DNA of 30,910 bases. It comes from Chloroflexota bacterium (lineage in GTDB: Bacteria > Chloroflexota > Anaerolineae > Anaerolineales > Anaerolineaceae). The stretch lies in assembly GCA_029265085.1 (NCBI GenBank), contig JAJUJY010000035.1, positions 1-30,910 on the forward strand, given 5' to 3'. A program made the position numbers and the translations under genes. The notes below the pieces were generated by a model that did not search any database, was not told where the DNA came from, and saw only the letters and a list, made by a program, of their open reading frames with translations. This document shows positions 9,530-30,910 of this stretch, one piece after another (within the stretch, counting starts at the first letter, position 1; each line of letters starts with the position of its first letter).

Positions 9530-10669
9530 TTATGCGGTTGGAATGGCTGGGCCAGGCAGGCCTTGCCAGCCGCGCAGTGATTCAAGTTCGATCCGAAATG
9601 CACGGGCTACCTGTGCAACGGGTTGGGCAGTTGCGGATTGGCCCAGGTAGCGGTGGGTGAGACGCTGAAGTAATTGGTTTAGCTCGGGACTGCCGGTTGT
9701 GTAGGGCAAGGCGGATGCTTTTCCGCGGGCAACAATGCGGCGAAGCGGTGGCCAGGGCTCATCCACGGTTAAAGATATATTGGGATTTTGAAAGACAAAA
9801 TCTGCCCATTGCGACCCCTGCCAGGCAATAATGGTGAAGGCTTGACCGTCCCATTCTTGCCAGACTGGAATCACGTGCGGTCTTCCGTCCGGGCGGATGC
9901 AGGCCAGCCGGGCTGCCCAGGGGCCTTGTAAAAAACTGGTGATTTCCACTGCGTCCAGGGCACCGGTACCGGGGAGTTCTTTGGGAGATTGTCCGCGATA
10001 GGGGGAATAATATAATGCGCCCATCCGGTATGATAAGCGGGCAGCTAATGCACGCAGTTCCGGCAGCCATAAACCAAGCATCGGGTCAGACTGCCAGCGA
10101 TAAACAGGAACACTTAAGACAATGGCCGCACCGGGTTGGCTGCCTTCCGGACAAACCGGCAGAGCCAATTCGGCCATGTGACGGCCGATTTCCAGTGTGT
10201 AGCCATTTTGTATTGTGGTTTGATCTGGATTTGTGGATAAGATGCGGGCTGCCGCAGTGATTTCAGCCGCATTTTGGCCGGGGTTGTATACCGAACGGAC
10301 AGGGTGTTGTCCTTCGATTTGACCAAGAATCTGGCTGCCCTCTGCTGTTGGCATAACCAGGATCATGGTTTCCGGCCAGTTCTGGCGGCCTACCTCCTGG
10401 TAAAAAGCGGTAAGCAAATCCTGGCGGTGATCTCCCGGCATGGTGCGCCATGCCAACAGCCGAGGCCCGCAGTGATAGCGTCCGCGGCGCTCGGATTGCT
10501 CTACGTAGCCGAGAGTCTTCAATGTGCGCAGCAATATAAATAATGTGCTGCGCGAAACATCCAGATTGAGCAAAATTTCCTGCGGTGTTAACCCGTCGGG
10601 TTCAGCCAGGAGCAGTTCAATCAGGCGTAAGGTGCGTTCTGCGGTTGAAACAAGGGGATCTTCGGGCAT
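9530..10669 (-). CDS. IclR-type regulator fused to a pyridoxamine-phosphate-oxidase-like (FMN split-barrel) domain
   Basis: A 379-residue predicted transcription factor. Residues ~1-65 form an IclR-type winged helix (STAERTLRLIELLL, then LTPQEILLNLDVSRSTLFILLRTLKTLGYV). Residues ~80-230 are a weakly conserved middle that may be a degenerate IclR/GAF-like sensor. Residues ~238-370 look like a pyridoxamine 5'-phosphate oxidase/FMN-binding split barrel: GPWAARLACIRPDGRPHVIPV, then a tryptophan-rich strand pair and ISLTVDEPWPPLRRIVARGKA. Joining a DNA-binding domain to a flavin-binding fold suggests a repressor that reads FMN, a flavin precursor, F420 or a related ligand. The neighbouring NMT1-type transporter is the obvious target. 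No Shine-Dalgarno sequence precedes the ATG, so initiation is atypical. Confidence 0.8.
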   Translation of the reverse strand: MPEDPLVSTAERTLRLIELLLAEPDGLTPQEILLNLDVSRSTLFILLRTLKTLGYVEQSERRGRYHCGPRLLAWRTMPGDHRQDLLTAFYQEVGRQNWPETMILVMPTAEGSQILGQIEGQHPVRSVYNPGQNAAEITAAARILSTNPDQTTIQNGYTLEIGRHMAELALPVCPEGSQPGAAIVLSVPVYRWQSDPMLGLWLPELRALAARLSYRMGALYYSPYRGQSPKELPGTGALDAVEITSFLQGPWAARLACIRPDGRPHVIPVWQEWDGQAFTIIAWQGSQWADFVFQNPNISLTVDEPWPPLRRIVARGKASALPYTTGSPELNQLLQRLTHRYLGQSATAQPVAQVARAFRIELESLRGWQGLPGPAIPTA

Positions 10670-19713: not shown

Positions 19714-19785
19714 GGGCGTGTAGCTCAATGGTAGAGCAGTGGCCTTTTAAGCCATTGGTTCAGGGTTCGAGCCCCTGCACGCTCA
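19714..19785 (+). tRNA. tRNA-Lys (anticodon UUU)
   Basis: A 72-nt cloverleaf: acceptor GGGCGTG/CACGCTC with one G-T pair, D-arm GCTC/GAGC, and anticodon stem GTGGC/GCCAT around loop CTTTTAA, which places TTT at positions 34-36. The T-arm is CAGGG/CCCTG with TTCGAGC. The discriminator base is A and CCA is not encoded. It is the boundary between host-like genes and the mobile-element-like cluster. Confidence 0.97.
19750..19785 (+). other. Putative attachment site (attL) in the tRNA-Lys 3' half
   Basis: The anticodon-arm-to-3'-end half of a tRNA gene is a standard crossover target of tyrosine recombinases, and element-type genes begin right after it. No second copy of this sequence exists in the window, so the matching attR would have to lie beyond 30910. 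This is inference from position and gene content only. Confidence 0.4.
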
Positions 19786-19819
19786 CAGCTTTTTTTTTTG
19801 ATTAACAATTTATGGGGGC

Positions 19820-20287
19820 ATGGTGGCAAACGCTGAGGAGTACGAGCACGAATTTGAGCAGTTAGCCGGTGTTGAACATAAACCGGTTTCACCTGCTGAA
19901 AGGGCAGGTGCGGCGCGGTTTGCCTGGCGTGGTATTCAAGATGATTACATAGAACCGCTTGTATCTCCAGGTACAAGCAAAACCAGGCGAGAAGCAATTC
20001 AAATTCGTAACATTGATCGATTGCGTGGCTTGGTGATTAATGCTGTTTTTGGCTCAACGGTAATGTGCGCTCTGATTACTGGAGCGTTGATCGCTACCGA
20101 AGAACCCACAACCATAAATTATCAAGCATGGCTACAAGCGCTTGAAAATGCTCTAAAGCCTTTATTCGCAGCAACGATTTATTTCCTTTCAAACCCCACA
20201 TTGTATTGCCTGATGTCCTTATTTGCCTTTTTGGTCCTCACTGGAATTGGGTTTGGTGTAAGCCTGATTAAATGGCTAAAGGAGTAA
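19820..20287 (+). CDS. Two-helix membrane protein, unknown
   Basis: A 155-residue protein whose first ~75 residues are charged and cytoplasmic-looking. Two predicted membrane helices follow (about residues 73-92 and 132-151), the second ending in a short basic tail. I recognise no family. The ATG at 19820 follows a G-rich stretch that can act as a ribosome binding site; the next codon is a GTG. It is the first gene after tRNA-Lys and is followed after four bases by the tandem helix-turn-helix gene, so it belongs to the element by position. A host origin cannot be excluded. Confidence 0.6.
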   Translation: MVANAEEYEHEFEQLAGVEHKPVSPAERAGAARFAWRGIQDDYIEPLVSPGTSKTRREAIQIRNIDRLRGLVINAVFGSTVMCALITGALIATEEPTTINYQAWLQALENALKPLFAATIYFLSNPTLYCLMSLFAFLVLTGIGFGVSLIKWLKE

Positions 20288-20291
20288 CACC

Positions 20292-20714
20292 ATGGATATG
20301 TATATTCCCCTAAAGAAAGCGGCGCGAATAGTCAAGAAGGATCCTGACCTGTTGTATCAGGATATTGCTGCTGGTATGATTAGAGCAATTAAAGCGGCGG
20401 GGAGTGAAATCCTGGTGAATGAAAAGGACCTTTATCACGATTTGCCAAAAGAGGAACGGCCAGAATATAAAAAATATGCTCATCTTTGTGGTGTAAAGAT
20501 TCTGGCTAGTGAAGCGTCAAGGCGATATGGTGTGTCAACCCAATCTATTAGCAATTGGGTGAAAGCCGGATATATCAAGATGATTGAAAGATCCACAAAG
20601 CGGGTTTGGATAGATGAGGCGGATATAGCCTATTGTGCCGAGGTTTACAAATCAAATCCTGGGCAGGGGAAATGGCTATTCAATTCGGACGGAACCCCAT
20701 ATAACAAAAAATAG
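20292..20714 (+). CDS. Tandem helix-turn-helix protein, excisionase-like
   Basis: A 140-residue predicted DNA-binding protein with two related MerR/excisionase-style units: residues ~1-50 (YIPLKKAARIVKKDPDLLYQDI, then AGMIRAIKA) and ~65-125 (LASEASRRYGVSTQSISNWVKAGYIKMI, then STKRVWIDEADIAYCAEVY). The second has the clear pattern 'helix - turn - SISNWVKAGYIK - wing' followed by an Asp-rich helix. Its place beside the tRNA junction fits a recombination directionality factor or an element regulator. AAAGGAG lies seven bases before the ATG. An intrinsic terminator follows, making this and the previous gene a separate small unit. Confidence 0.7.
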   Translation: MDMYIPLKKAARIVKKDPDLLYQDIAAGMIRAIKAAGSEILVNEKDLYHDLPKEERPEYKKYAHLCGVKILASEASRRYGVSTQSISNWVKAGYIKMIERSTKRVWIDEADIAYCAEVYKSNPGQGKWLFNSDGTPYNKK

Positions 20715-20732
20715 TCAATCAATTTCAAATCA

Positions 20733-20757
20733 AAACCGCCAAATTCGGCGGTTTTTT
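20733..20757 (+). terminator. Intrinsic terminator after the tandem HTH gene
   Basis: AAACCGCC (20733-20740) pairs with GGCGGTTT (20747-20754) over a six-base loop and runs into seven T. The next gene has its own promoter just downstream. Confidence 0.85.
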
Positions 20758-20780
20758 TATTGTTCTTATTTCCCAATGTA

Positions 20781-20809
20781 TTGACAACTTTTGGAAATGG
20801 GTATACACT
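20781..20809 (+). promoter_or_regulatory. Promoter of the main element operon
   Basis: A perfect -35 TTGACA (20781-20786), a 17-bp spacer and TACACT (20804-20809), 41 bases before the ATG at 20850. It is placed to drive the long run of coupled genes up to at least 24157. Confidence 0.75.
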
Positions 20810-20849
20810 GATCGTGTCGTTTGTCACCAAATCCCCAGGGGGTAACCCA

Positions 20850-21245
20850 ATGCCACAATCAAGCCAATTATCTTACACGGTCATTTATGACCCCACCGGG
20901 GGCGATTTTCTCTTAGGCCGGTTTACGGATATCCGTTTACCTGTCAAATACAAGGGCTGGCCGGAGAATATCGCTTTTCAAAATCGTTGTTCTTTTCAAA
21001 TTGTTGCCTATACAGGAGGGAAATTGCGCGAATTGGGAAGGTGTAATAAAGCTGGTTTGCTGTCTGTGCGTTTATCTCAAATTGCGGCGGTCCATCCGCC
21101 AAGCCACCCCAATTTTATAAAAGCCCTGGCTGATATTCGGGAGCATTATAAAACCTGCACCCAATGCCGGACTTATTTAGATTGGCTGGCTAATGTTTGT
21201 ATTCAACCGGCCCCGGATCTGGAGCCGGAATTAACAAATGATTAG
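20850..21245 (+). CDS. Hypothetical protein of the element
   Basis: A 131-residue soluble protein. The start at 20850 is chosen because GGGGG lies nine bases upstream; the longer frame to 20760 runs through the promoter. The C-terminal half has spaced cysteines (YKTCTQCRTYLDWLANVCIQP), a possible metal site, and an EHYKTCTQC-type helix. The N-terminal half looks beta-rich (YTVIYDPTGGDFLLGRFTDIRL). No family recognised. It opens the operon that contains parA. Its stop codon lies inside one arm of a 12-bp perfect hairpin shared with the next gene's leader. Confidence 0.65.
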   Translation: MPQSSQLSYTVIYDPTGGDFLLGRFTDIRLPVKYKGWPENIAFQNRCSFQIVAYTGGKLRELGRCNKAGLLSVRLSQIAAVHPPSHPNFIKALADIREHYKTCTQCRTYLDWLANVCIQPAPDLEPELTND

Positions 21246-21270
21246 TCCGATGCAGCAACATCGGACTAAT
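21241..21270. repeat. Perfect 12-bp inverted repeat across a stop codon
   Basis: ATTAGTCCGATG (21241-21252) and CATCGGACTAAT (21259-21270) enclose a 6-nt loop. The left arm contains the TAG stop (21243-21245) of the upstream gene, and the right arm ends eight bases before the ribosome binding site of the next gene. No T-run follows, so it is not a classic terminator. It may be an operator, an RNA-stability hairpin or a translation control. Confidence 0.7.
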
Positions 21271-21288
21271 CCAAAAGGGGCTATAACG

Positions 21289-21495
21289 ATGGCTATCTAT
21301 GTCAACCTTGATGATATCACGAATAACGGCCGTGCGCTACTGTGTGACCTGCGCGGAATGGCCGAGCAGCAAGGATCTGATTTCTCAAAAGTTTGGATGC
21401 CTGCTGCGGATCTGATCCATGACGTATTGACCGGAATTGGTTTACCGGAAGATGCGGTAACCGCCATTTTAGAATCCCAGGAGGTTGCCGCGTAA
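21289..21495 (+). CDS. Small hypothetical protein
   Basis: A 68-residue acidic soluble protein (MAIYVNLDDITNNGRALL onward). The start at 21289 follows AAGGGG by eight bases; a longer frame from 21238 passes through the hairpin and is less likely. Its stop TAA overlaps the next gene's ATG (TAATG at 21493-21497), showing coupled translation. No domain recognised. Confidence 0.6.
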   Translation: MAIYVNLDDITNNGRALLCDLRGMAEQQGSDFSKVWMPAADLIHDVLTGIGLPEDAVTAILESQEVAA

Positions 21496-21953
21496 TGGAA
21501 ACAGGATTAACCGCTGCTGATCTTGCCGAGGGAATCAAGCAGGTTGTTGAAGCCTTGCAAGAAAAAATCAATGATCTAACCGCCAAGCTGGTAGAGATTG
21601 AATACCAGGGGGTAATCAACGCAACCCCATATTACAAGGATGGGAAATACCTGCAATTGATCCACCCCATGACCAACGGCGAACGAGTGCGGGAATATGT
21701 GGGCGCGGATCCTGAAAAGGTGCAGGAAGCCCTGGCAGCGGTTGAGCGGTATAAAGCCTGGGTAGAACTGGACCAGGAGCGGGCAAAATATCAGGGGATA
21801 TTAAACCAGATTCATTCTGAATTATCCGCCGTGCAAAGGTCTATCCGTTCTGCTGCCCAGCGTGATTTACCGCTGGCTGATATTTTCAAGATTGGTGACA
21901 TTCTGAACTGTACCAGGTCGAATGAATGTCACCAACTCATTACAAGATTTTAG
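21495..21953 (+). CDS. Coiled-coil hypothetical protein
   Basis: A 152-residue protein with a helical N-terminus (LAEGIKQVVEALQEKINDLTAKLVEI, broken here for description). A short beta segment follows (YYKDGKYLQLIHPMTNGERVREYVG), then a long helical region (PEKVQEALAAVERYKAW to SAVQRSIRSA). The middle segment resembles the small DUF-type domain that often follows recombinase or transposase helices (tyrosine-rich strand, then YVG), but I cannot assign a function. The start overlaps the previous stop. It lies in the parA operon. Confidence 0.6.
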   Translation: METGLTAADLAEGIKQVVEALQEKINDLTAKLVEIEYQGVINATPYYKDGKYLQLIHPMTNGERVREYVGADPEKVQEALAAVERYKAWVELDQERAKYQGILNQIHSELSAVQRSIRSAAQRDLPLADIFKIGDILNCTRSNECHQLITRF

Positions 21954-21964
21954 AGGGGTACATC

Positions 21965-22294
21965 ATGGATGCAAAATTAACTATCCTGTTCCAACAAGAG
22001 GAATATTTCGGGAAAGGCAAGTTTGATGACCCGGAAAATGTTGTGTCTGTCATTTTGCGCAAATGGGAAGCTACCGGGGAATTGCCAGAATACACCCTGG
22101 AATTGGCTGTATGGGCCAATGATGATCGGGTAAGACTAGAGAAGGGCTTGATTGATTGGGCAGATATCCGAGGGGATTACCCGGATGCGGCGGCTATTCG
22201 GATTGCAATTCTGAAATTCGATATAGCCGTAAAAACCCATTTGATTAACCAAGCGGATGCCCTGATTGAAGAAATCGAGGCTGGGCAGCCATGA
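21965..22294 (+). CDS. Hypothetical acidic protein before parA
   Basis: A 109-residue acidic, probably helical protein (MDAKLTILFQQEEYFGKG onward). The start at 21965 is chosen for AGAGGGG seven bases upstream; the longer frame from 21926 overlaps the previous gene more. Its stop overlaps the parA ATG by four bases (ATGA), so the two are translated together. No family recognised; the coupling suggests a role linked to ParA dosage or partition, as inference only. Confidence 0.6.
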   Translation: MDAKLTILFQQEEYFGKGKFDDPENVVSVILRKWEATGELPEYTLELAVWANDDRVRLEKGLIDWADIRGDYPDAAAIRIAILKFDIAVKTHLINQADALIEEIEAGQP

Positions 22295-23058
22295 CCATAA
22301 TCACCATAGCCAACCAAAAGGGCGGGGTAGGGAAAACCGCTACCGCTGTGACGCTGGCGCATGGAGCCGCCCTGCGCGGGCTGCGGGTGCTGCTGGTTGA
22401 CCTGGACACCCAGGGCAACGCGGCCGATTCGTTGGGCCTGGACGCGGCGGGAGATCTGTTCCGTTGGCTGATCCAGGGCCAACCGTTGCAGGTTTGCGCG
22501 ATCCAGGCCCGGCCGGGGTTAGATCTGATCCGGTCCGATAAAACCACCGTTGCGCTGAAAACCATTCTGGCAGGTCAAGATTTTCGGGAGCGTTGTTTGG
22601 TCGCTGGCCTGGCTGGCAACCGGTATGACCTGGTTGTATTCGATTGCAGCCCCAGCGCGGATATTCTGCATACCGCGGCGCTTGTTGCTGCTGACTATTT
22701 GATTATCCCCGCTCAAATGAGCCAATACGCGATTAAGGGGGTTGTAGAGGTTCGCCAATCGCTTGACGCTATAACACGGGTTGGGGGTTCTAAGTGCTCT
22801 CTTGCCGGGATTATTCCAACGTTCTTTGATCGGGTGACCAATGAAAGCCAACTCCAGTTAGAAAACCTGGCTGGTGCTTTCAAGTCGCTGGTTTGGCCTG
22901 TGGTGCCGATTGATAACAAGGTCCGGGAAGCAAACCGGGCCGGTCAAACCCTTTGGGAGTACGCCCAGGATAGCCGGGCCGTTACCGGATACGAATTGAA
23001 CGGGAAGCGGGTTGGGGGGTATGCCCAGGTGCTAGATCGGCTAATGGGGATTGTATGA
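22291..23058 (+). CDS. parA: ParA-family partition ATPase
   Basis: A 255-residue cytoplasmic ATPase. The deviant Walker A is NQKGGVGKTATAV (signature Lys10 and Lys15), Walker A' is LLVDLDTQGNAADSLG, and Walker B is LVVFDCSPS. There is no N-terminal helix-turn-helix, so it is of the short type Ib/Soj-like group. In plasmids and integrative elements ParA moves DNA bound by a centromere-binding partner. The likely partner is the ribbon-helix-helix protein at 23762, and the palindrome array at 24172 a possible centromere. The gene is more GC-rich than its neighbours. It overlaps the genes on both sides by four bases. Confidence 0.93.
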   Translation: MTIITIANQKGGVGKTATAVTLAHGAALRGLRVLLVDLDTQGNAADSLGLDAAGDLFRWLIQGQPLQVCAIQARPGLDLIRSDKTTVALKTILAGQDFRERCLVAGLAGNRYDLVVFDCSPSADILHTAALVAADYLIIPAQMSQYAIKGVVEVRQSLDAITRVGGSKCSLAGIIPTFFDRVTNESQLQLENLAGAFKSLVWPVVPIDNKVREANRAGQTLWEYAQDSRAVTGYELNGKRVGGYAQVLDRLMGIV

Positions 23059-23339
23059 ACGAAACGGTTAAATCTATCGAGGTTGAAATACCGGTCCATG
23101 CCGGGCGGCCTTGGGATCCAATTCCTGAACCGGCCTGGTACATGAGGCGGGTTGTTCGAGAAATTATGCGCGTAGTCAATAGAGCACCAGGCTATAAAAT
23201 TGTGCTCTTGTCCGTTTCTCTGGAAGATGGGAAATCAGCCGCGGCACGTCATTTTGATTGGGCCAGATACCAGGGCTGCCGGGTGACGGTGTTCTATTCC
23301 TTCTATCGCCAATTAGAGCTATTCGGGGTGCAATCATGA
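23055..23339 (+). CDS. Small hypothetical protein after parA
   Basis: A 94-residue soluble protein with mixed helix and strand (PAWYMRRVVREIMRVVNR, then IVLLSVSLEDGKSAAARHFDWARYQG). It overlaps parA and the next gene by ATGA on both sides. No family recognised. A link to partition is suggested only by position. Confidence 0.55.
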   Translation: MNETVKSIEVEIPVHAGRPWDPIPEPAWYMRRVVREIMRVVNRAPGYKIVLLSVSLEDGKSAAARHFDWARYQGCRVTVFYSFYRQLELFGVQS

Positions 23340-23548
23340 GTGAAAACTATCAACGTCCTGTACTTTCAAACGAAGAAGTAAACCAGGCTTACCGCTTTGC
23401 TAGAGAATTGAGCACGTTATACCCTGCGAGGCGAATTGTAGTGATCGGTTCGCTGTTGGTTGAAAATGCGCGTTTGCTGCGTGAAGTAAACCAGCTCCGG
23501 GAAAAGCTGGGAATAGATCCATTGGCTGAGCACAAATTAGCAGGGTAA
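23336..23548 (+). CDS. Small hypothetical helical protein
   Basis: A 70-residue protein starting at 23336 within an ATGA overlap (MSENYQRPVLSNEEVNQAY onward). It is mostly helical, with a Leu-rich C-terminal segment (VENARLLREVNQLREKLG) that could form a short coiled coil. No family recognised. The frame extending back to 23258 is a shadow inside the previous gene. Confidence 0.55.
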   Translation: MSENYQRPVLSNEEVNQAYRFARELSTLYPARRIVVIGSLLVENARLLREVNQLREKLGIDPLAEHKLAG

Positions 23549-23550
23549 CC

Positions 23551-23778
23551 ATGACCACAAATGATCTGATTGCCCAGGCTGAACAAATGATCCAGCAGGT
23601 TGACGCGATTAACGAGCGGGTATTCTCTGCCTGGTCGGTGCGCTGCCGCCAATGCGGTGATAACGTGGACCTGGTTCATGCAGTCAAGGTTAGTGATGAT
23701 GGCCTGGAATATTGGCTTTGTGGTGAATGTGCGGATCTGTGCGGTTGGCTAGAGGTGCACCATGAAGAAACAAAATAA
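23551..23778 (+). CDS. Small zinc-finger protein
   Basis: A 75-residue protein with a helical start and two cysteine pairs, CRQC (~30-33) and CGEC (~56-59), spaced as a treble-clef or ribbon zinc finger. An extra Cys lies in the DLCGWLEVHH tail. Such fingers are common in phage and plasmid genes of unknown role. It begins two bases after the preceding stop and overlaps the ribbon-helix-helix gene by 17 bases. Confidence 0.6.
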   Translation: MTTNDLIAQAEQMIQQVDAINERVFSAWSVRCRQCGDNVDLVHAVKVSDDGLEYWLCGECADLCGWLEVHHEETK

Positions 23779-24157
23779 CGGCCTGATTGATTTTAATACC
23801 CTGGGTGACCTTGACCCGGTTATCAGCGCGACCATCAGCAACGGGCAGCGGCGGGCTGCTGATCGGACCTTGCCGCAAAAAGAGCGCAAAGCCAAGATCC
23901 GGGAGCGGGCAAAAGCGGAGGCACGGAACGGCAGACGGTCGGTTTACGATATGGACCCGGAATTAATCCGGGAACTGGCCGCCCTGGCAGAAAAGCACCA
24001 AACATCCGCAAGCCAACTGGCCGCCCTGGCGGTTTGGTTTTTCCTGGATGCAATTGATAAGGGTCAAATCCAGGTTCGGGACTATCTCCAGCCGGTTAAT
24101 AACCCCCGCTATGCGTACCTGGTCAACTGGCAAAAGAGCGGCGGTGGCAAAAAATAA
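23762..24157 (+). CDS. Ribbon-helix-helix-like DNA-binding protein, possible partition partner
   Basis: A 131-residue protein with a very basic, flexible N-terminal half (LPQKERKAKIRERAKAEA, then RNGRR). It is followed by the pattern RSVYDMD-PELIRELAALAEKH-QTSA-SQLAALAVWFFLDAI, which fits one strand and two helices of a ribbon-helix-helix fold. RHH proteins with basic tails (ParG, Omega, CopG types) bind repeated operators and, with ParA, act as centromere-binding proteins or repressors. The array of four palindromes begins 15 bases after its stop codon, and the initiator-like gene follows. DNA binding is predicted from pattern alone. Confidence 0.6.
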   Translation: MKKQNNGLIDFNTLGDLDPVISATISNGQRRAADRTLPQKERKAKIRERAKAEARNGRRSVYDMDPELIRELAALAEKHQTSASQLAALAVWFFLDAIDKGQIQVRDYLQPVNNPRYAYLVNWQKSGGGKK

Positions 24158-24171
24158 TTAATTACTGTCTT

Positions 24172-24263
24172 GGGGGTACCCCCGTATTTTTACCGTCTAA
24201 AACGCGGGGGTACCCCCACATTTTAGACGGGGGTACCCCCTAAAAAATCGCGGGGGTACCCCC
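24172..24263. repeat. Array of four GGGGGTACCCCC palindromes
   Basis: Four exact copies of a 12-bp palindrome at 24172-24183, 24206-24217, 24229-24240 and 24252-24263. The starts are 34, 23 and 23 bp apart, and the separators are AT-rich. Each copy is self-complementary, so each could be a dimer-binding site. The position between the RHH gene and the initiator-like gene suits a centromere, an origin component or a copy-control operator. A 6-bp hairpin (GGGCTT/AAGCCC, 24265-24281) follows. Confidence 0.85.
24193..24230. repeat. 38-bp dyad centred on the second palindrome
   Basis: CCGTCTAAAA (24193-24202) and TTTTAGACGG (24221-24230) are perfect inverted arms. Their centre coincides exactly with that of the GGGGGTACCCCC at 24206-24217. 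Only the three bases next to the core on each side break the symmetry. Only this copy has such arms, so it may be a special or nucleation site. Confidence 0.85.
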
Positions 24264-24301
24264 AGGGCTTACAGGAAGCCCCAGGAGCGGCGCAATAGGG
24301 C

Positions 24302-24322
24302 AGGGGGCTATAAATACCCCCT
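24302..24322. promoter_or_regulatory. AGGGGG-9-CCCCCT dyad around a -10-like sequence
   Basis: AGGGGG (24302-24307) and CCCCCT (24317-24322) enclose CTATAAATA, which holds TATAAA, a plausible -10 of the initiator-like gene starting at 24342. No good -35 is seen. The G5/C5 arms match the half-sites of the upstream array with a wider gap, so the same protein may repress here. Confidence 0.5.
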
Positions 24323-24341
24323 CAAAAATAATAGGGGTTCT

Positions 24342-25220
24342 ATGGGCAAAAATGGATCAAACGGAAACAAATCAAATGAGCGGGACGCATACCAGCAAAC
24401 CCTAATGGAATTTATCCAATGTCGGCCGGTTGCCTATTGGCCTGGCCTTGCCCGGCGGGTCGGCGGTGTAAAAGCGGCGGTCATGCTAAGCCAATTACTG
24501 TACTGGAATGGTGATCCAACCGTTAAAAGCCGCGGCGGCTGGTTGCTTAAGTCGGTTGATGATCTAGAGCATGAAACCGGATTAACCAAGGTCGAGCAGC
24601 AAACCGCAAGGGAAACATTAATCCAGTATGGGGTGATTGACGCTGAACTACGCGGTGTTCCAAGGATCTGGCATTACCGGGTTAATATGGCCGTTTTAGA
24701 AAATATTCTCATTGGGAAGGAATCTCATCCAATGGAAAACTCATCCAATGAGAATCTCATCCAATGGGAAACTCATTCAATGGAAAACCTTCCCAACATT
24801 GGGCGGGAAAGTGATCCAACATTGGGAAGGAATCTCACCCAACTTAATAAGGTATTAAAGACTACCTCCTTAAGACTACATAAGAAGACTACCTCCTCCT
24901 CCTATCCGGCCCAAAAAAATCAAACGGAAGCCCCCCAAACCGCTGACCAGCAGGAGCAGGGCTTACCGGAGAATTTAATTTCTGGGTTATCTAACATTGG
25001 AGTATTTGAGGACCTATACCCGGAAATAGTAAACGCGCTCCAGGCGGGTTGGTCCGTGGATGCGCTCTTAGATCTGATTGGCGAGGTAACCACCAGCGCA
25101 AATGTGACCGCTCCGGGCGGCGCATTTATCTACCGTTTACGCAATCGCAAACCACCCAAACCGAGGGATGATCGAAAAAATTACCTCTCCGGTGAGTATG
25201 CCGATTTAATCAATTGCTAA
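24342..25220 (+). CDS. Winged-helix replication-initiator-like protein (lambda O/DnaD-style)
   Basis: A 292-residue predicted DNA-binding protein. Residues ~25-125 carry a pattern typical of phage and plasmid replication proteins: VKAAVMLSQLLYWN, then GGWLLKSVDDLEHETGL, EQQTARETLIQYGVIDAELRG and WHYRVNM. This is a winged helix that reads a DNA site. Residues ~125-215 are low-complexity and Asn/Ser/Thr-rich because the DNA there consists of repeats rather than conserved protein. The C-terminal ~75 residues resemble the end of other initiators (APGGAFIYRLRNRKPPK). Its own coding sequence contains an iteron-like array, as in lambda O. AGGGG lies before the ATG, and the gene follows the palindrome region. 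It would recruit the host helicase to start replication; this is inferred, since no domain search was possible. Confidence 0.65.
   Translation: MGKNGSNGNKSNERDAYQQTLMEFIQCRPVAYWPGLARRVGGVKAAVMLSQLLYWNGDPTVKSRGGWLLKSVDDLEHETGLTKVEQQTARETLIQYGVIDAELRGVPRIWHYRVNMAVLENILIGKESHPMENSSNENLIQWETHSMENLPNIGRESDPTLGRNLTQLNKVLKTTSLRLHKKTTSSSYPAQKNQTEAPQTADQQEQGLPENLISGLSNIGVFEDLYPEIVNALQAGWSVDALLDLIGEVTTSANVTAPGGAFIYRLRNRKPPKPRDDRKNYLSGEYADLINC
24711..24843 (+). repeat. Iteron-like array inside the initiator gene (candidate origin)
   Basis: CTCATCCAATGG-type 12-mers occur at 24724, 24740, 24756 and 24772, exactly 16 bp apart (copy 2 ends in A, copy 4 has one T change). A 22-bp repeat (ATTGGGAAGGAATCTCAYCCAA) flanks them at 24711-24732 and 24821-24842, and an inverted CCTTCCCAA lies at 24788-24796. 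Because 16 is not a multiple of three, the copies fall in all three frames and encode different peptides (SHPME, SSNE, LIQW, HSME). The DNA, not the protein, is therefore what is repeated. Confidence 0.8.
24858..24897 (+). repeat. AAGACTAC triple repeat next to an AT-rich stretch
   Basis: AAGACTAC occurs at 24858, 24872 and 24885, the outer two extended to AAGACTACCTCCT. Just before them (24841-24857) is an AT-rich run with TTAATAA and TATTAAA. Following the iteron-like array, this is where an unwinding element would be expected. Confidence 0.6.
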
Positions 25221-25228
25221 GGGGAACT

Positions 25229-25597
25229 ATGAATAAAATGACTACCACCGAAACAAGAATCTTAAGCGCAATCAACCAGGCGGGAGCAATCCAATCAATT
25301 CGTTGGCTTTGCACTACGCTGGGAATAAGCCGAACGAACGCAAGGACCAGGATCCGCAATTTACAAAAGCGCGGATTAATCCAGGTTGATTATCAGGGAC
25401 CGCGGCGGGCTGCGGTGCTGCGGGCGGCGCGGCCGTGGGTGCAGCGCTGGGCGGGCAAGGCGCGGCGCTGCCCGGTGCCGTTGACGATCCAGGCGCGGCA
25501 TGCCTGCATGAAAAAGCAGCCCAGCCAAACAAATAGGGGTAATGATTCTCAAATGATCCCGGTACACAGTACACAGTACACAAATCATGATGCCTGA
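25229..25597 (+). CDS. Small winged-helix protein
   Basis: A 122-residue predicted DNA-binding protein. Residues ~5-60 (TTTETRILSAINQAG, then IRWLCTTLGISRTNARTRIRNLQKRGLIQV) form a MarR/LexA-style winged helix. The C-terminal half is Arg/Ala-rich and ends without a recognisable domain; much of its composition comes from a GC-rich block (25395-25500). AAGGGG lies five bases before the chosen ATG at 25229. It follows the initiator-like gene by eight bases and may regulate the element. Three GTACACA units lie near its 3' end. Confidence 0.65.
   Translation: MNKMTTTETRILSAINQAGAIQSIRWLCTTLGISRTNARTRIRNLQKRGLIQVDYQGPRRAAVLRAARPWVQRWAGKARRCPVPLTIQARHACMKKQPSQTNRGNDSQMIPVHSTQYTNHDA
25562..25582 (+). 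repeat. Tandem GTACACA x3
   Basis: Three exact 7-bp units in a row at the end of the small wHTH gene, just before the next start codon. They may be a regulatory site or a simple repeat; nothing further can be said. Confidence 0.6.
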
Positions 25598-25757
25598 AAT
25601 CGGGGAGAAGTTAGGCTCTGTGCTGTTATGCCTGGTTTGCCTGGTTCCGTGGGCGGCCGGGTTTGGTGCTGGCTGGCTGCTGTGCAAACGGGTTGCCCAG
25701 CGCGGCTGGCCCTGGACTGAAATCATTAACTCCATTCGAGAAAGAAGGGAAATCTAA
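25587..25757 (+). CDS. 56-residue membrane protein
   Basis: A short ORF beginning ATGATG at 25587 and overlapping the stop of the wHTH gene in another frame. It encodes MMPEIGEKLGSVLLCLVCL, then one membrane helix up to about residue 32 (containing LVPWAAGFGAGWLL), and a basic tail ending in REI. No clear Shine-Dalgarno sequence is present, so coupled translation is likely. It is the first of a run of seven tiny membrane proteins. Function unknown. Confidence 0.55.
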   Translation: MMPEIGEKLGSVLLCLVCLVPWAAGFGAGWLLCKRVAQRGWPWTEIINSIRERREI

Positions 25758-25768
25758 GAGGTGTAGCT

Positions 25769-26104
25769 ATGGAAGATGACGTTAAATCATTTGCATTGTC
25801 AATATTGGTGATCCTAATTGGCAGTGTGATAGCAATATTGATGCTGATGTCCTTGACTGCAAAAGCGGGTTATGTTTCTGATCCTGTTTGCGTTGAAGAA
25901 AAATGGGTTGCAAATGTTGAGCAAACACTAACAGGAACAACAACTGTTTATTATGTCAGTACTTCGGATGGTAAAACGTTTGAATTATATTCGGCTGGTA
26001 TGTATGGGAAGTTGAAACCTAACAAGTGTTACATAGTCAAAGCGCTTGGCTCTACGTTTTCTGCTGGCATTATTACCTATATTGAAAAAGAGGTGCAACC
26101 ATGA
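25769..26104 (+). CDS. Single-pass membrane protein with exported domain
   Basis: A 111-residue protein with one N-terminal membrane helix (~8-31, FALSILVILIGSVIAILML). A small beta-rich domain of ~75 residues outside the membrane contains two cysteines (DPVCVEEKW and NKCYIV), possibly a disulfide. The segment TTTVYYVSTSDGKTFELYSA looks like an OB- or beta-sandwich-type strand set. AAGAGG lies before the ATG, and it overlaps the next gene by ATGA. Function unknown; it is the largest member of the small membrane gene cluster. Confidence 0.65.
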   Translation: MEDDVKSFALSILVILIGSVIAILMLMSLTAKAGYVSDPVCVEEKWVANVEQTLTGTTTVYYVSTSDGKTFELYSAGMYGKLKPNKCYIVKALGSTFSAGIITYIEKEVQP

Positions 26105-26298
26105 TGATAACCGATAAATGGTTAGTGTATCTGGCGTTGGCGTTTGTGTTTTTTACTTGGCTTGGGGCGATGGTTGTTTGTGATGATTACTATTCGGACA
26201 AGGTTCGTGCAGTATGGCGCAAAGTAACAACCAACATTTTGATAACAATCATTGTTTTGTTTGGTGCTTTTTCAGTCGTTTTGATTGTTGGGGGGTGA
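26101..26298 (+). CDS. Two-helix small membrane protein
   Basis: A 65-residue protein with two predicted membrane helices (about 7-26 and 42-63) joined by a short charged loop (DDYYSDKVRAVWRKV). It starts in the ATGA overlap with the preceding gene; ATG codons at 26101 and 26104 are both possible. AT-rich like its immediate neighbours. No family recognised. Confidence 0.55.
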   Translation: MMITDKWLVYLALAFVFFTWLGAMVVCDDYYSDKVRAVWRKVTTNILITIIVLFGAFSVVLIVGG

Positions 26299-26301
26299 CA
26301 C

Positions 26302-26496
26302 ATGAAAGACGATACTAGTCTAGATCAAAACGATGGTGCTGTTTTAGCGTCAATACTTGCTGTGATGGCTGTGTTGTATCTATTTAGCCGTATGACAGTT
26401 TTAGGGGTTGCGCTTATCGGCGGGGATATTTTAGATATTTTGGCCGGTGTTTATGTGGTGGGTTATCTTGCCTATTTTTGCGTACGATCCATATAA
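26302..26496 (+). CDS. Two-helix small membrane protein
   Basis: A 64-residue protein with a charged start (MKDDTSLDQNDGA) and two predicted membrane helices (about 13-33 and 36-62). GGGGGTGACAC precedes the ATG by a few bases. No family recognised. It is part of the small membrane protein cluster and lies three bases after the previous stop. Confidence 0.55.
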   Translation: MKDDTSLDQNDGAVLASILAVMAVLYLFSRMTVLGVALIGGDILDILAGVYVVGYLAYFCVRSI

Positions 26497-26505
26497 GGGG
26501 TAAGA

Positions 26506-26736
26506 ATGAGCGAATACATATTCTGGGTAATCAAAGAAATGGGGCTTGAATGGCCTTTGAAAATCATGGCCGGATTGGTAGTTATCAACGGGTTGCTTGC
26601 TTTATCGCTAGAGAAACTCAAAAAACCAAGTCGTGACCGGGGAGAATTAACCGCGATTACCAAACCGCTATATCCCCGTTATAGGGTCGTTGACCGCTCA
26701 AAATCCAAACGTTTGAAATACAGAAGAAAGGAGTAA
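26506..26736 (+). CDS. Small membrane protein with basic tail
   Basis: A 76-residue protein with one likely membrane helix (about 15-36) and a strongly basic C-terminal tail (EKLKKPSRDRGELT, then RYRVVDRSKSKRLKYRRKE). The tail would face the cytoplasm and could contact DNA or phospholipid. AGGGG precedes the ATG. No family recognised. Confidence 0.6.
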   Translation: MSEYIFWVIKEMGLEWPLKIMAGLVVINGLLALSLEKLKKPSRDRGELTAITKPLYPRYRVVDRSKSKRLKYRRKE

Positions 26737-26741
26737 AAGCC

Positions 26742-26843
26742 ATGTTAACTAGTATTTTGGTTCTTGTTGGAACGGTTGCATTAACCGTAATCATCGGCCT
26801 GGCTGTTGTCCTGGTTGTCAACAAAGCGAAAGGGGGCAAATGA
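26742..26843 (+). CDS. 33-residue single-helix peptide
   Basis: An ATG with a perfect AAAGGAG eight bases upstream begins a 33-residue peptide. It consists of one membrane helix (residues ~3-27, TSILVLVGTVALTVIIGLAV onward) and a basic end (NKAKGGK). It overlaps the next gene by ATGA. The strong ribosome binding site and exact packing between coupled genes argue that it is real. The shape (one helix, basic C-terminus) is that of a holin-like, pilin-like or filamentous-phage coat-like peptide; which one cannot be decided. Confidence 0.65.
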   Translation: MLTSILVLVGTVALTVIIGLAVVLVVNKAKGGK

Positions 26844-27058
26844 CCCAGCGTTATGTAGAACTGTTGAACCGGTACCAGGCGCGGGATGATTCCTTAGTCC
26901 TGCTGGCCGGAATATCTTTACTCATCATCCTGGCCTGGGTGCTGATTGACCAGCAGCATATAAAAGCCCAGGTTAAAAATTGGCTGCGCTCTGCGGTGAC
27001 CGGAATCATCCTGGTTGTATTCCTGGTTACCCTGTTGAGGTCAATCCATGTTATCTAA
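26840..27058 (+). CDS. Two-helix small membrane protein
   Basis: A 72-residue protein with a soluble start (MTQRYVELLNRYQARDD) and two predicted membrane helices (~18-37 and ~49-68). It overlaps the 33-residue peptide gene by four bases and the following glycosyltransferase gene by 11 bases, so all three are translationally linked. GAAAGGGGG lies before the ATG. No family recognised. Confidence 0.6.
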   Translation: MTQRYVELLNRYQARDDSLVLLAGISLLIILAWVLIDQQHIKAQVKNWLRSAVTGIILVVFLVTLLRSIHVI

Positions 27059-28589
27059 GCGCGTAAACTGGCAAACCCTAGCCCTGGCCGCTCTGGCGGC
27101 CGGGGCAGCCCTGCGAATTGCTGGCCTGGGCGCGGCTGCCCTGTGGTATGACGAAAGCTACACCCTGGCTTTGACCCGGTTTGATCCGGTGACTATGGTC
27201 CGGCTGGCAGCCCAGGATTTTAACCCCCCAGGCTGGGAATTGATCGCCTGGCCGTTCACCCGGTTAATACCCGGTTTGTATCATGCAAGGATACCGGCGC
27301 TGCTGGCAAGTCTGGCCGGGCTGGTCCTGGTTTGGTTGATTACCGGCCGGTTGATTCAGCAGCCACCGGCGCGGTTTGCTGCGGTTGCCCTGGCTGCCCT
27401 GCTGCCGGTCGGGTTCTGGACTGCCCAGGATGGCCGCTGTTATGCGCTGCTATCTACTCTCTACCTGGCCGGGCTGTGGTTTATTCTGAACCGGCGCTGG
27501 CTGGGGCTGGCCGCGGTTACTGGCTTGATTCTCTATATGCACAATACCGGGTTATTTTATGCGGCTGCCCTGGGCCTGTCTGGCCTGGCCGCGTGTGGTG
27601 ACAATAAAATCACCTGGTCAACCATCAAATGTCACCAGGGTTTGATTTATGCGATGGCTGCCGGTGTACTGTCGTATTTACCCTGGGTGCCCGCTCTGAT
27701 CCAATCCACCAGCGGGGATTTTTGGTTAGGTCCATTGACCTGGGGCGGTCTAAATTATGCCATGATCCAGGCGGCATTTACCGGAACCCTGGGGCCAGTC
27801 ATGGCTGCGGTTGCGGTGTATGGGATCTGGTTTGCCCTGGCTGCTGCGGTGCTGTTGGTCGGGGGCGGTTGGCTGGCTGACCGGATCCAGCCTGCTACCG
27901 CCAAGGTGGGGAACCTAGTGCTAAATTACCTTCGGATGCCAACGGTTACCGTTCAGGCTGATCCAGCCGAGCGGGGACAATTGGTATTGATGGTCTTTGC
28001 CCTGGGGCCGCTGGTGCTGCTGGATTTGGCCTCAATGACCTATAAAAATCTGATCTTTTACCGCCCTCTGGTTCCGGCCGTGGTGCCCGTTTGTTTATTC
28101 CTGGCCGCTGCCCTGACCCCCAGGCGGTTAACCCTGACAACCTGGCTGCTGCCCTATACCGCGGCGGTGCTGGTCCTGGCTGGCCTGATCGGTTGGGATC
28201 CTGACCGGCGCGGCGGCGATCTGGACCAGGCAGCCGAATTTATTACCCAACATGCCCAGCCGGGGGATATTGTTTACCATGCTACTGCAACAAGCCTGAT
28301 GCCCTTTGGGGATTACCTGAACCTGAACCAATATTTATTGGACGAGCAGCAGCCGGACGGATTATTAAGATGGTCCTTGCAAGATGCGTTTGATATACAA
28401 CGGGCACCCCTGGAAGATCTGCACTCAGGCGGGCGGGTTTGGTTTGTTTGGGCGCGGGATCCAATCGTAACTGACCAGGCAGCCCGGCGCATGGCGGGAT
28501 ATACCCAGGGCGCGGTATTGGTTGGCCGGGTGCAATCCTGGCAGTTTGCGCCAATGGAGATCTACTTACAAGGGGAGGTCAAACCATGA
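27048..28589 (+). CDS. GT-C membrane glycosyltransferase (PMT/ArnT-like)
   Basis: A 513-residue integral membrane protein with about ten or more helices. After the first helix it has LWYDESYTLAL (Asp35, Glu36), the catalytic acidic pair in the first extracytoplasmic loop of GT-C enzymes that use lipid-linked sugars (the dolichyl-phosphate-mannose mannosyltransferase/GT39/GT83 group). The NPPGWELIAWPFTRL segment then corresponds to the HPPLYYL motif, but with His replaced by Asn. The C-terminal ~120 residues form a soluble domain outside the membrane. Such enzymes glycosylate proteins or lipids on the outer face. A paralogue lies at 29011. It overlaps the preceding small membrane gene and the next gene (ATGA at 28586). 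Confidence 0.85.
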   Translation: MLSKRVNWQTLALAALAAGAALRIAGLGAAALWYDESYTLALTRFDPVTMVRLAAQDFNPPGWELIAWPFTRLIPGLYHARIPALLASLAGLVLVWLITGRLIQQPPARFAAVALAALLPVGFWTAQDGRCYALLSTLYLAGLWFILNRRWLGLAAVTGLILYMHNTGLFYAAALGLSGLAACGDNKITWSTIKCHQGLIYAMAAGVLSYLPWVPALIQSTSGDFWLGPLTWGGLNYAMIQAAFTGTLGPVMAAVAVYGIWFALAAAVLLVGGGWLADRIQPATAKVGNLVLNYLRMPTVTVQADPAERGQLVLMVFALGPLVLLDLASMTYKNLIFYRPLVPAVVPVCLFLAAALTPRRLTLTTWLLPYTAAVLVLAGLIGWDPDRRGGDLDQAAEFITQHAQPGDIVYHATATSLMPFGDYLNLNQYLLDEQQPDGLLRWSLQDAFDIQRAPLEDLHSGGRVWFVWARDPIVTDQAARRMAGYTQGAVLVGRVQSWQFAPMEIYLQGEVKP

Positions 28590-28999
28590 CCAGGAGAAAA
28601 AAATCAAGCGGGTTTGGCATGCTGGGGGCTGCCTTTGCTGGCAGCGGATCCAAGCGGCGCGGAAAGCGCGGCGGGTTGGTCAATATTGCCCCATCCATCA
28701 ACGGGCGCAAGCGGCGCGGCCAACGGTGGACGATGGCCGATAACATTGATACATTCAAAGCCTTTCGGGGCAAGGGGCGGCGCTCCAGCCGTGGGGGTAT
28801 CACGGCCCAGGCAGCCCGTTCATTCCGTGACCGCATGACCCCAACCGAGCGGGCACAAATTCAGCAAGAACTGGACGAAACCATAGAAAATGACACGGTT
28901 CTAAGCGGCCAAACCGCTGACCAAAAGCTAGTAAATCAGCCGTGGTATCAGCGGTTAATGATCCTGGCCCGTGAACGGTTCCGAAAACCTGTTTTATAA
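28586..28999 (+). CDS. Basic hypothetical protein between the glycosyltransferases
   Basis: A 137-residue, highly basic protein. The first ~75 residues are Gly/Arg/Lys-rich and probably disordered (KRRGKRGG, NGRKRRGQRW, GKGRRSSRGG). The remainder is helical (FRDRMTPTERAQIQQELDE, then QPWYQRLMILARERFRKP). It could bind nucleic acid or acidic lipid. No family recognised. AGGGGAGG precedes the ATG, which overlaps the glycosyltransferase stop. Its place between two glycosyltransferases in one operon suggests a shared structure, as inference. Confidence 0.6.
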   Translation: MTRRKKSSGFGMLGAAFAGSGSKRRGKRGGLVNIAPSINGRKRRGQRWTMADNIDTFKAFRGKGRRSSRGGITAQAARSFRDRMTPTERAQIQQELDETIENDTVLSGQTADQKLVNQPWYQRLMILARERFRKPVL

Positions 29000-29010
29000 A
29001 AGGGGGAAAC

Positions 29011-30528
29011 TTGAAAAAATCCCGGTTGGTATTCTTGACAATCTTTACCCTGGCCGCTGGTTTGCGATTGGTTCAATTGGGGTTGGCCCCGCTCTGGTAT
29101 GACGAGGTTTTCAGCGCAACCCTGGCCCGGTTACCCCTGGGGCAAATGCTCCAGGCTACCGCTGGGGATACTCACCCCCCGCTGTATTATTTGATCCTTT
29201 GGGGTTGGGTGCGGTTGGCTGGCTATTCTGAGTTTGCCTTACGGATGCCTTCTCTGATTTTCTCTCTGGTCGGGCTGTGGCTGTTTTGGCGGTTGTCGGC
29301 CGCCTATGATCTGCCGGATCCGGTCCGGCTGGTTGGGTTGGGGTTCATGGCCTTTATGCCGGTCATGCAGCATTACGCACAAGAAGCCCGCATGTATGCT
29401 CTATTTGTTGCCCTGGTGCTTTGGGCTGCCCTGGCGGTCAAGCAGCGGCGCTGGGTCCAGGCTGGTATAGCCAATACCCTGATTTTATATATTCACAATT
29501 ACGGGCTATTCTATGTTCCGGTCCTGTTTATTATGGCCTTATGGCCGGAAGTCCATAAAGCGGTAACCTGGTACCGCTTAGAAGATGGCACCAGCCGGGT
29601 AGATTGGCAAGATTGCCAATCCCGTGAGTGTACCAGGGCGTTTGTTATTCCAGGGTTGGCCTGGCTGCCCTGGGGGGTTGTGCTGCTATCTCAAATGCGG
29701 ACCGTTGCCGGAGGCTATTGGATCCAGGCGGTAACCCCTGGGGGTGTTCTCTATGCTGTGTATATGCTGTTCCTGGGCTTTGCCACCCCGGATAACTTTC
29801 AGGTAATCGCTATCCTGGTATGTTTTGCCGCTCTGATTCTGGCTGTGCTCCAGGGGCTAAAATCTAAGCGGCTGGCCTGGCTTGCCCTGGGCTTGCTGCC
29901 GTTGGTTGTGGCTGTGGCTGGTTCGCTGATCTGGCGGCCGGTGCTGCTGTTCCGTGGGCTGCTGCCCTCTGCCCCGTTTTTATATCTCTTGATTGCGGAT
30001 CTGATCGGCCGGGCAAAGCTAAAACGGTTGACCGGATATATCTTTTTTACTCCGGTAATCCTGGCCGGGTTGATCGGCCATTTTATCTATAACCCAGCCA
30101 ACAAGGGCGGCGCAAACGAAACTGTAAACCTGATCCGAGAGGTAAGGCAGCAAATCCAACCGGGGGATATTATCTATCACGTTAATGACGGATCGGCGCT
30201 GTCCTGGTCCTGGTATGCCCCGGATCTGGAGCAATACGAATTACCCAGCGGGGACCTATGCGGCCGGTCGGATCCAGGCAGCCTATCCGATAAAACACGG
30301 GCGGCGGTTGGGATCCAGCAAGCCGAGTTAACCAGCCTGGACTATAAAAGAGCCTGGCTGATCTATTCGATTGGCCCATTAACCACCCAATGCGAGGAGC
30401 AAATAGCCGCGGATCTGCGCGACAAATCGAGCCAATACCGCTTAGTTTGGGAAGATGATCTAATCACTACGGGAGTGTATCTTTATGAGCACGTTACAAA
30501 TACAACCGGTCAACCATCGGCGCGATAA
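29011..30528 (+). CDS. GT-C membrane glycosyltransferase, paralogue
   Basis: A 505-residue polytopic membrane protein homologous along its length to the protein at 27048. The first loop has LWYDEVFSATL (Asp31, Glu32) followed by GDTHPPLYYLILWGW, the full motif of lipid-linked-sugar glycosyltransferases. The C-terminal extracytoplasmic domain shares the QPGDIIYH pattern with QPGDIVYH of the first copy. The start is a TTG with AGGGGG just upstream. The pair may differ in donor or acceptor, since the His of HPP is Asn in the first copy. The last 44 bases overlap the next gene. Confidence 0.85.
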   Translation: MKKSRLVFLTIFTLAAGLRLVQLGLAPLWYDEVFSATLARLPLGQMLQATAGDTHPPLYYLILWGWVRLAGYSEFALRMPSLIFSLVGLWLFWRLSAAYDLPDPVRLVGLGFMAFMPVMQHYAQEARMYALFVALVLWAALAVKQRRWVQAGIANTLILYIHNYGLFYVPVLFIMALWPEVHKAVTWYRLEDGTSRVDWQDCQSRECTRAFVIPGLAWLPWGVVLLSQMRTVAGGYWIQAVTPGGVLYAVYMLFLGFATPDNFQVIAILVCFAALILAVLQGLKSKRLAWLALGLLPLVVAVAGSLIWRPVLLFRGLLPSAPFLYLLIADLIGRAKLKRLTGYIFFTPVILAGLIGHFIYNPANKGGANETVNLIREVRQQIQPGDIIYHVNDGSALSWSWYAPDLEQYELPSGDLCGRSDPGSLSDKTRAAVGIQQAELTSLDYKRAWLIYSIGPLTTQCEEQIAADLRDKSSQYRLVWEDDLITTGVYLYEHVTNTTGQPSAR

Positions 30529-30910
30529 CAAAGGATTGCATATTGACCCTGGCCGGTTGGCCGGTGCTGTAACCAGCAAGGGCGGATCTGCTGAAATGGC
30601 CGCTCCTGAAAAGGTCGAGAGCACCCCAACCGGTCAAGCGCTGCCAACGCTCCAGGCAGGACCAACGGAAGCCCCAACAGAAAACCCGGAACCATTGAAG
30701 CAGCGCATTTATGCCCATCCGCCCAGGAACAAGATCAAGCGCTTGATTTATGATCTGTTGACCCCAAAGCGGCCAGAACCAACCCCGGAAGAACTCCGAG
30801 CGTTGGAGGAACAAAAGCGCTATGAAGCCCTGGCCGCCCTGCTGCGCGAGGAAAGCGAACTATTCAGGGACCGGATTATCAACGCGCTTAACCGGCTGGG
30901 GCTGTGCTAC
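30485..30910 (+). CDS. Hypothetical protein, N-terminus only (runs off the window)
   Basis: An ATG at 30485 opens a frame of 142 codons that is still open at the window end. It overlaps the glycosyltransferase gene by 44 bases. The N-terminus is Pro/Thr/Glu-rich and flexible, followed by a charged helical part (EELRALEEQKRYEALAALL, then REESELFRDRIINALNRLG). The helix-then-NALNRLGLCY ending resembles the region before an ATPase or nucleic-acid-binding domain, for example in FtsK/TraB-like or VirB4-like proteins. That is only a guess. The codon use matches the GC-rich glycosyltransferase genes, and the frame extends too far to be chance. Confidence 0.65.
   Translation, partial: MSTLQIQPVNHRRDNKGLHIDPGRLAGAVTSKGGSAEMAAPEKVESTPTGQALPTLQAGPTEAPTENPEPLKQRIYAHPPRNKIKRLIYDLLTPKRPEPTPEELRALEEQKRYEALAALLREESELFRDRIINALNRLGLCY

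Follow-up and report, generated by a model that had tools for sequence, protein, structure and literature searches.

A mobile element of a probable Anaerolineae host seems to have its origin of replication within its own initiator gene

The window (the whole stretch of DNA analyzed here, 30,910 nucleotides) holds a replication initiator gene within a group of genes that begins at a tRNA gene. The first-pass annotation described this as a probable Chloroflexota element. The chromosomal prolyl-tRNA synthetase encoded in the window agrees with that assignment, with 64–72% identity to its best matches, in 8 of 60 Anaerolineae genomes, and makes a host of this class the most likely one. The main features of the element are:

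19714..19786, + strand: tRNA-Lys gene (ARAGORN), left edge of the element and presumed insertion site
20292..20714, + strand: helix-turn-helix protein, excisionase-like (PHROG 66, 5.2e-5; HTH_17, 1.2e-5, below its cut-off)
22291..23058, + strand: ParA-type ATPase (PHROG 164, ParA-like, 7e-43; AAA_31, 4.9e-36)
23762..24157, + strand: probable ribbon-helix-helix (RHH) DNA-binding protein, proposed ParA partner (weak PHROG regulator matches)
24172..24263, unstranded: four perfect GGGGGTACCCCC palindromes (24172, 24206, 24229, 24252) in the gap that separates the initiator gene from the RHH-like gene, candidate centromere/operator
24342..25220, + strand: O-like replication initiator gene, 292 aa (PHROG 9773, E 6.4e-31)
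25214..25597, + strand: small winged-helix protein directly downstream of the initiator, scanned from an inner ATG at 25229 (MarR_2, 5.7e-7; PHROG 3502, 3.3e-6)
30485..30910, + strand: N-terminal portion of a possible FtsK/SpoIIIE-like translocase, truncated where the window stops (BLASTP E 5e-4 over 43 aa)

The gene order tRNA, helix-turn-helix gene, parA, small DNA-binding gene and initiator is common to the window and two relatives, L001 and L022. The family members extend over 19714–30910 in the window, 6855–14789 in L001 and 6295–13337 in L022. The tRNA at the element edge is specific for Lys in the window, Cys in L001 and His in L022, a relation of adjacency only. Counterparts of the helix-turn-helix gene were recognized in both relatives by position and by eye. 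The best PHROG regulator match of the probable RHH protein had an E value of 0.017 and its Arc-like match one of 0.26, and there was no RHH match in Pfam. Its orthologue in L022 (9935–10297) is clearly alike by eye, and BLASTP against the protein in the corresponding position of L001 gave no match. The GGGGGTACCCCC palindrome occurs four times at one mismatch or fewer where 0.11 occurrences are expected, and 0/100 shuffles reached four. Two of the intervals between the palindromes are 23 bp, and the group, which the first-pass annotation had overlooked, could serve as both centromere and operator for partition by ParA and the RHH-like protein. The corresponding gap in L001, between its small DNA-binding gene and its initiator gene, contains other tandem repeats (9814–9902).

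Downstream of the initiator, the protein scanned at 25229–25597 had a DnaD-like PHROG match only at E 0.017. The 3' end of this gene contains a perfect 7-bp tandem repeat, GTACACA three times at 25562–25582. No helicase loader, helicase or P-like partner was found among the nine genes scanned around the initiator, and no integrase among the scanned genes of the window and its relatives. Two large membrane proteins (27048–28589 and 29011–30528) are alike by eye, with DNA repeats at 28256/30156. The second of these matches PMT_2 glycosyltransferases. A similar-looking gene is present in L001 (11585–13051), and we regard the two membrane proteins as cargo. The open reading frame at 30485–30910 has no Pfam match of its own, and its BLASTP partner in a single comparison was L001 12924–14789, which matches FtsK_SpoIIIE at 6.8e-34. 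An FtsK-like gene is present in L001 and possibly in the window.

The gene at 24342 had been called initiator-like, and the profile match to PHROG 9773 (replication initiation O-like), which spans residues 27–205, identifies its product as an O-like initiator. The full-length AlphaFold2 model, read by pLDDT, has well-modeled N- and C-domains (residues ~27–125 and ~208–270) separated by a disordered linker (~128–205). The C-domain is helical in this model; when modeled alone it has a low-confidence pLDDT of 66.7. No Pfam family, RepA_N included, matched the protein at E≤0.1, and a Foldseek search against the PDB gave no match at E≤0.001. A PDB sequence search with an alignment of relatives (A1, described below) gave two matches with E values of 0.19 and 0.23, which we took as chance. 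When the pLDDT profile is compared with the positions of repeats in the DNA, the disordered linker coincides with the following arrays:

24710..24732, + strand: 23-nt direct repeat flanking array A, upstream copy (96% identity to the copy at 24820–24842)
24724..24788, + strand: iteron array A, period 16, four 12-bp units at 24724, 24740, 24756 and 24772 (TRF 4.1 copies, score 95)
24792..24843, + strand: iteron array B, period 23, 2.3 copies, with a CCCAACATTGGG core dyad (TRF score 62)
24844..24901, + strand: low-GC stretch with the AGACTAC array, proposed strand-opening element (36% GC against 48% in the whole gene)
24859..24865, + strand: AGACTAC unit 1, read as K-T-T
24873..24879, + strand: AGACTAC unit 2, in another frame, read as R-L-H
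24886..24892, + strand: AGACTAC unit 3, read as K-T-T

The order in the linker DNA is the 16-bp array A, then the 23-bp array B, then the three AGACTAC units. Much of this had been seen in the first-pass annotation. Its four 12-bp units with their strict 16-bp period were recovered by TRF, its three AAGACTAC units are the AGACTAC words, and its AT-rich stretch is the low-GC DNA around them, although the words themselves are not strongly AT-rich. The direct repeat that it gave as 22 bp is real and flanks array A, but is 23 nt long. Its layout of four iterons and an AT-rich region is present but incomplete, since the 23-bp array B was overlooked; the AGACTAC units belong to an AGANTAC array, and it is this part that extends across phyla.

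The 12-mer of array A is not rare by itself. The window contains 6 matches at two or fewer mismatches where 3.98 (sd 2.08) would be expected, and 22/100 shuffles reached 6 or more. The unusual feature is the tandem register. The best lag-16 identity over a 48-nt window is 0.85; synonymous-codon shuffles gave a mean of 0.59 and a maximum of 0.77, so that 0/300 reached the observed value. Matches at lag 16 are nearly equally frequent at codon positions 1, 2 and 3 (14/19, 15/19 and 15/18). The lag-23 score of array B was reached by 1/300 synonymous shuffles, and its dyad has arms of 5 and a spacer of 2 (shuffle p 0.06). That selection acts on the DNA had been proposed from the sequence, and the codon-shuffle results and out-of-frame copies bear marks of it. 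These data indicate that the arrays in the initiator linker are under selection at the DNA level.

We then compared relatives of the element. Beyond the query we found 43 relative proteins, 28 of which were aligned with it as A1. Relative DNA came from an Anaerolinea MAG (L001) and from genomes of its class and order, including L007, which lies within L022. Genomes with a match numbered 8/396, 9/400 and 8/301 in three overlapping sets in each of which the MAG is counted. Scans with the single protein returned no relatives in viral_contigs or genome_contigs; scans with alignment A1 returned 3 and 2 loci. The 16-bp array has 4.1 copies in the window, 3.5 in L001 and 5.1 in L007, and 3' of it the 23-bp array has 2.3, 2.7 and 3.6 copies, respectively. 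The lag-16 score was reached by 0/300 synonymous shuffles in each of the three. The repeat unit sequences differ among them despite the same periods and order, and the linker peptide of L007 is, by eye, unlike that of the window. Homologues that keep DNA repeats while the encoded linker diverges had been named as support for an origin, and L007 compared with the window is such a case.

For relatives available only as proteins we tested by back-translation, period by period, whether a repeating DNA sequence is compatible with the linker peptide. P0007 and P0024 were excluded for want of an anchor, which left 27 of the 29 A1 proteins. Three lags stood out: 16 (compatibility 0.831, against 0.610 with shuffled residues), 23 (0.760 against 0.613) and 32 (0.729 against 0.605). 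All other lags from 10 to 31 were within ~0.04 of the shuffled value. A second run on all 29 proteins used a shorter window and a looser anchor, and the 16-bp signal came first in 10/10 proteins with both signals at 0.85 or above. At least two AGANTAC-encodable peptides were present in 22/29 A1 proteins (raw count). Together, these results show that the arrangement is conserved while the repeat sequences and the linker peptide diverge. Tandem, near-identical copies are what neutral duplication by slippage would leave, but these periods and this order recur in many genes whose repeat sequences differ. This largely contradicts slippage as the explanation, and we consider it extremely improbable.

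To place the AGACTAC units in a wider context, we examined O-like genes of phages and plasmids. Records with a tblastn match numbered 64 for phages and 35 for plasmids; the sample comprised 14 of the former and one of the latter, plus lambda. AGANTAC clusters were found in the linker of 6/7 of the first genes (the exception being lambda O) and 8/9 of the next. The exception among these nine was the O-like gene of Ld25A, the one Lactobacillus phage gene examined, which was without a cluster. A protein scan with an N-domain pattern then contributed the best 80 of 499 confirmed loci, ranked by likeness to L034, the array-bearing Marinobacter plasmid relative. With the earlier genes this made 106. 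The N-domain profile was matched by 103 of them, which dereplication at 85% DNA identity reduced to 63; the three without a match, as judged by their absence from the profile list, are L019, L020 and lambda O. AGANTAC clusters were present in 54/63 dereplicated genes, which is not an unbiased rate because the sample was ranked by likeness to an array bearer. In the same ranked sample, AGAHTAC clusters were present in 48/63, compared with a mean of 2.8 and a maximum of 8 in 200 rounds of synonymous shuffling and a mean of 0.005 genes in codon-order shuffles. The spacing between units of AGAHTAC clusters is 12 bp in 57/76 intervals and 10–14 in the rest.

A 22–24-bp array lies 5' of the AGANTAC cluster in 42/43 genes that have both, with a median gap of 12.5 nt (range 5–62). 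The lone exception to this order is L014, in which the TRF row is far downstream. In some AGANTAC-bearing genes (for example L030, L032, L238 and L241) TRF detected no 22–24-bp array, and neither array was found in 5/63 O-like genes (L002, L003, L010, L011 and L013). The GC content of the AGANTAC array is below that of its gene in 54/54 cases (mean 0.40 against 0.55). Dyad symmetry of the repeat units is modest and weaker than expected, with 17/56 consensus units at p<0.05 and a mean arm of 4.3 against 3.1 in shuffles. Among the other dereplicated genes a 16-bp TRF row occurs only once, in L179 (1.9 copies).

These genes also bear on the possibility that selection on the linker peptide, as a repetitive disordered spacer, produced the repeats, with DNA repetition as a by-product. 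The linkers of the nearest relatives are indeed alike, with a SHPM..SNGK..IQ..NIG pattern, and TETTTE-type peptides are frequent in motif-bearing phage O proteins. In keeping with this, 107 of the 124 clustered AGAHTAC copies are in codon phase 1, compared with 13 in phase 2 and 4 in phase 0. However, AGANTAC copies are found in all three codon phases, even within the single gene L004; the periods of 16 and 23 are not multiples of three; and L007 has the same periods with an unlike peptide. Codon choice is also skewed to the DNA word. At constrained positions, T2 is encoded by ACT in 88% of 68 cases compared with 16% of 1231, I by ATT in 90% at the AGAHTAC word compared with 39% elsewhere in the same genes, and E by GAG in 92% of 90 at the word compared with 52% of 1569 elsewhere. 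The less constrained third T, supposedly free, is raised as well (ACT in 42% of 110 compared with 16% elsewhere). A peptide origin of the repeats is thus largely contradicted and very unlikely.

We also worked from the motif back to the gene. The outcome of this check was mixed. It covered at least 120 stretches with at least 127 motif matches, and the longest open reading frame was on the same strand as the motif in 122 and on the opposite strand in 5. The O-like N-domain, by local profile, is carried by 67/122 same-strand frames. The other 55 include other initiator types together with acidic, tail and other proteins that resemble chance matches, and in 24 of these 55 the motif is in codon phase 2. 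Six of the 55 were checked by PHROG: L041 and L063 matched replication initiation protein/O-like, L061 O-like, L053 and L154 a DnaD-like loader, and L070 an O-like C-part with an HNH domain. An HNH-endonuclease-like domain lies between the N-domain and the AGANTAC region in L043 (1646–2647), L048 (4–907) and L070 (4511–5347), and the L070 frame contains only the later part of its HNH-bearing O-like gene. This arrangement looks as if a homing nuclease targets origins. A scan for relatives of L061 returned only L061 itself, and one for lambda O returned 80 near-identical copies of no use for comparison.

The arrays, their order and their conservation lead us to conclude that the linker DNA of the initiator gene is very probably the replication origin of an integrative, plasmid-like element. 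The steps we propose rest on analogy with lambda, pSK41 and plasmid Rep/DnaA origins, which suggests the 16- and 23-bp arrays as the sites of iteron binding and AGANTAC as the site of opening. The N-terminal domain, probably a winged helix, would bind the 16- and 23-bp iterons, and the resulting nucleoprotein complex would then melt the adjacent low-GC stretch with the AGANTAC array, which we propose as the strand-opening element. The initiator or a host loading factor could capture one exposed strand via the AGANTAC words. The C-terminal domain, judging from O and RepA_N proteins, may recruit a replicative helicase or primase.

Iterons often double as control sites. The repeats could therefore be sites of autoregulation or copy-number control (an operator or incompatibility locus), with the origin elsewhere on the element, and the four strong palindromes just upstream of the gene make the region rich in likely protein sites. 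We consider this improbable, since it leaves unexplained a low-GC AGANTAC array that lies 3' of the iterons and since the corresponding iterons of lambdoid phages form the origin (PMC7466680). The upstream parA and RHH-like genes raise a further possibility, namely that their products use array B, or the cluster as a whole, as a partition site (centromere). The upstream GGGGGTACCCCC array is a better centromere candidate, and no parA is annotated within ~3.3 kb around the 14 phage and one plasmid O-like genes (where many products are 'hypothetical'), most of which have the same internal layout. A role in partition is accordingly very improbable.

A second initiator family bears on what might read the AGANTAC word. 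This family (phrog_270 for the seed L041) has a different N-domain profile, and an AGANTAC cluster is present in 13/14 of its dereplicated genes, the gene without one being a 376-nt fragment. The sample was the best 80 of 182; its seeds were chosen via the motif, and the relatives via patterns in parts of the protein other than the linker. Among the 14 representatives, L326 and L399 are contigs of motif-chosen seeds. The phrog_270/678-type genes L041, L063, L080 and L155 have an N-terminal motif, N-[VI]-[TI]-P-x-x-W-[WF], unlike O-like genes, and like O-like genes they carry AGAYTAC arrays and often 22–23-bp arrays as well. On the C-terminal side, the Marinobacter plasmid protein matches other O-like and DnaD-like profiles in its C-part. 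The AGANTAC word is thus kept with different N-domains (phrog_9773 and phrog_270) and, it seems, with different C-domains, which makes a common host reader possible.

From this we tentatively suggest that the AGANTAC array is an unnamed strand-specific element for origin opening or helicase loading, the equivalent in O-type replicons of the DnaA-trio. At least two initiator families would share it, in Pseudomonadota, Cyanobacteriota and Chloroflexota phages and mobile elements, and it would lie 3' of the iterons, spaced at about one helical turn. Because the word is kept while iterons and C-domains change, a host factor, and not the element's own initiator, may read it. We put this whole proposal at slightly below an even chance. 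Among the open-licence papers listed in our searches, none describes the AGANTAC array in its title or the opening of its abstract, and no paper of that collection contained any of five motif strings.

If these ideas are correct, the element provides a candidate replication module for uncultured Anaerolineae, on whose replicons there was no title among the open-licence literature matches listed. A short DNA word kept across phyla in fast-changing initiator genes suggests a shared origin-opening step, and one word in many replicons predicts one common reader. Synonymous recoding of AGANTAC would separate origin function from protein function. A simple rule for proposing origins in phage and plasmid genomes also follows: iterons, then AGANTAC, inside the initiator gene.

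As a comparison, in lambda and Stx phages the initiator gene contains iterons with AT-rich DNA next to them, each lambda iteron being an inverted repeat (PMC7466680). The lambda record annotates four iterons in O, and their place in mid-gene beside an AT-rich region is that seen in the window gene. By contrast, lambda O is outside the local N-domain profile list and has no AGANTAC cluster; the 60 tblastn records listed, out of 64, do not include lambda. No P-like partner turned up among the genes scanned around the window gene. In the plasmid pSK41 four Rep boxes in the middle of rep are bound by the N-domain, and the protein can do without its linker (PMC5703833). The window gene, with its proposed origin central in the gene and encoding the linker, is closer to such RepA_N plasmids than to lambda; the likeness is one of layout, and no RepA_N domain was matched by Pfam profile. 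The first-pass annotation had proposed a new replicon type; this is not supported in principle, because the layout is already that of lambda O and of pSK41 RepA_N (PMC7466680 and PMC5703833).

A further comparison is with the PHROG 9773 O-like proteins of phages and a Marinobacter plasmid, which share the N-domain family and have 22–24-bp arrays and AGANTAC inside most genes. They differ in that the 16-bp row occurs once only among them, and in that the window element lies next to a tRNA gene and carries parA and possibly an FtsK-like gene. With respect to the AGANTAC words, PMC10797057 reports that Rep proteins of plasmids can bind iterons in duplex form and, simultaneously, the repeats of the DUE as single strands, and that DnaA reads a short repeated word in the unwinding element. 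The DnaA-trio and the single-stranded repeats bound by Rep resemble the AGANTAC array as short words in a region to be melted, beside double-strand initiator sites (PMC10797057). The word is different, however, its spacing is ~12 bp for AGANTAC compared with 3, and recognition of AGANTAC is our proposal. Compared with these systems, the stacking of a 16-bp array before a 23-bp array in tRNA-adjacent Anaerolineae elements with ParA and RHH-like genes is new. The general principle is known, and what is new is the cross-phylum AGANTAC word, the stacked 16/23/AGANTAC arrangement and the element family.
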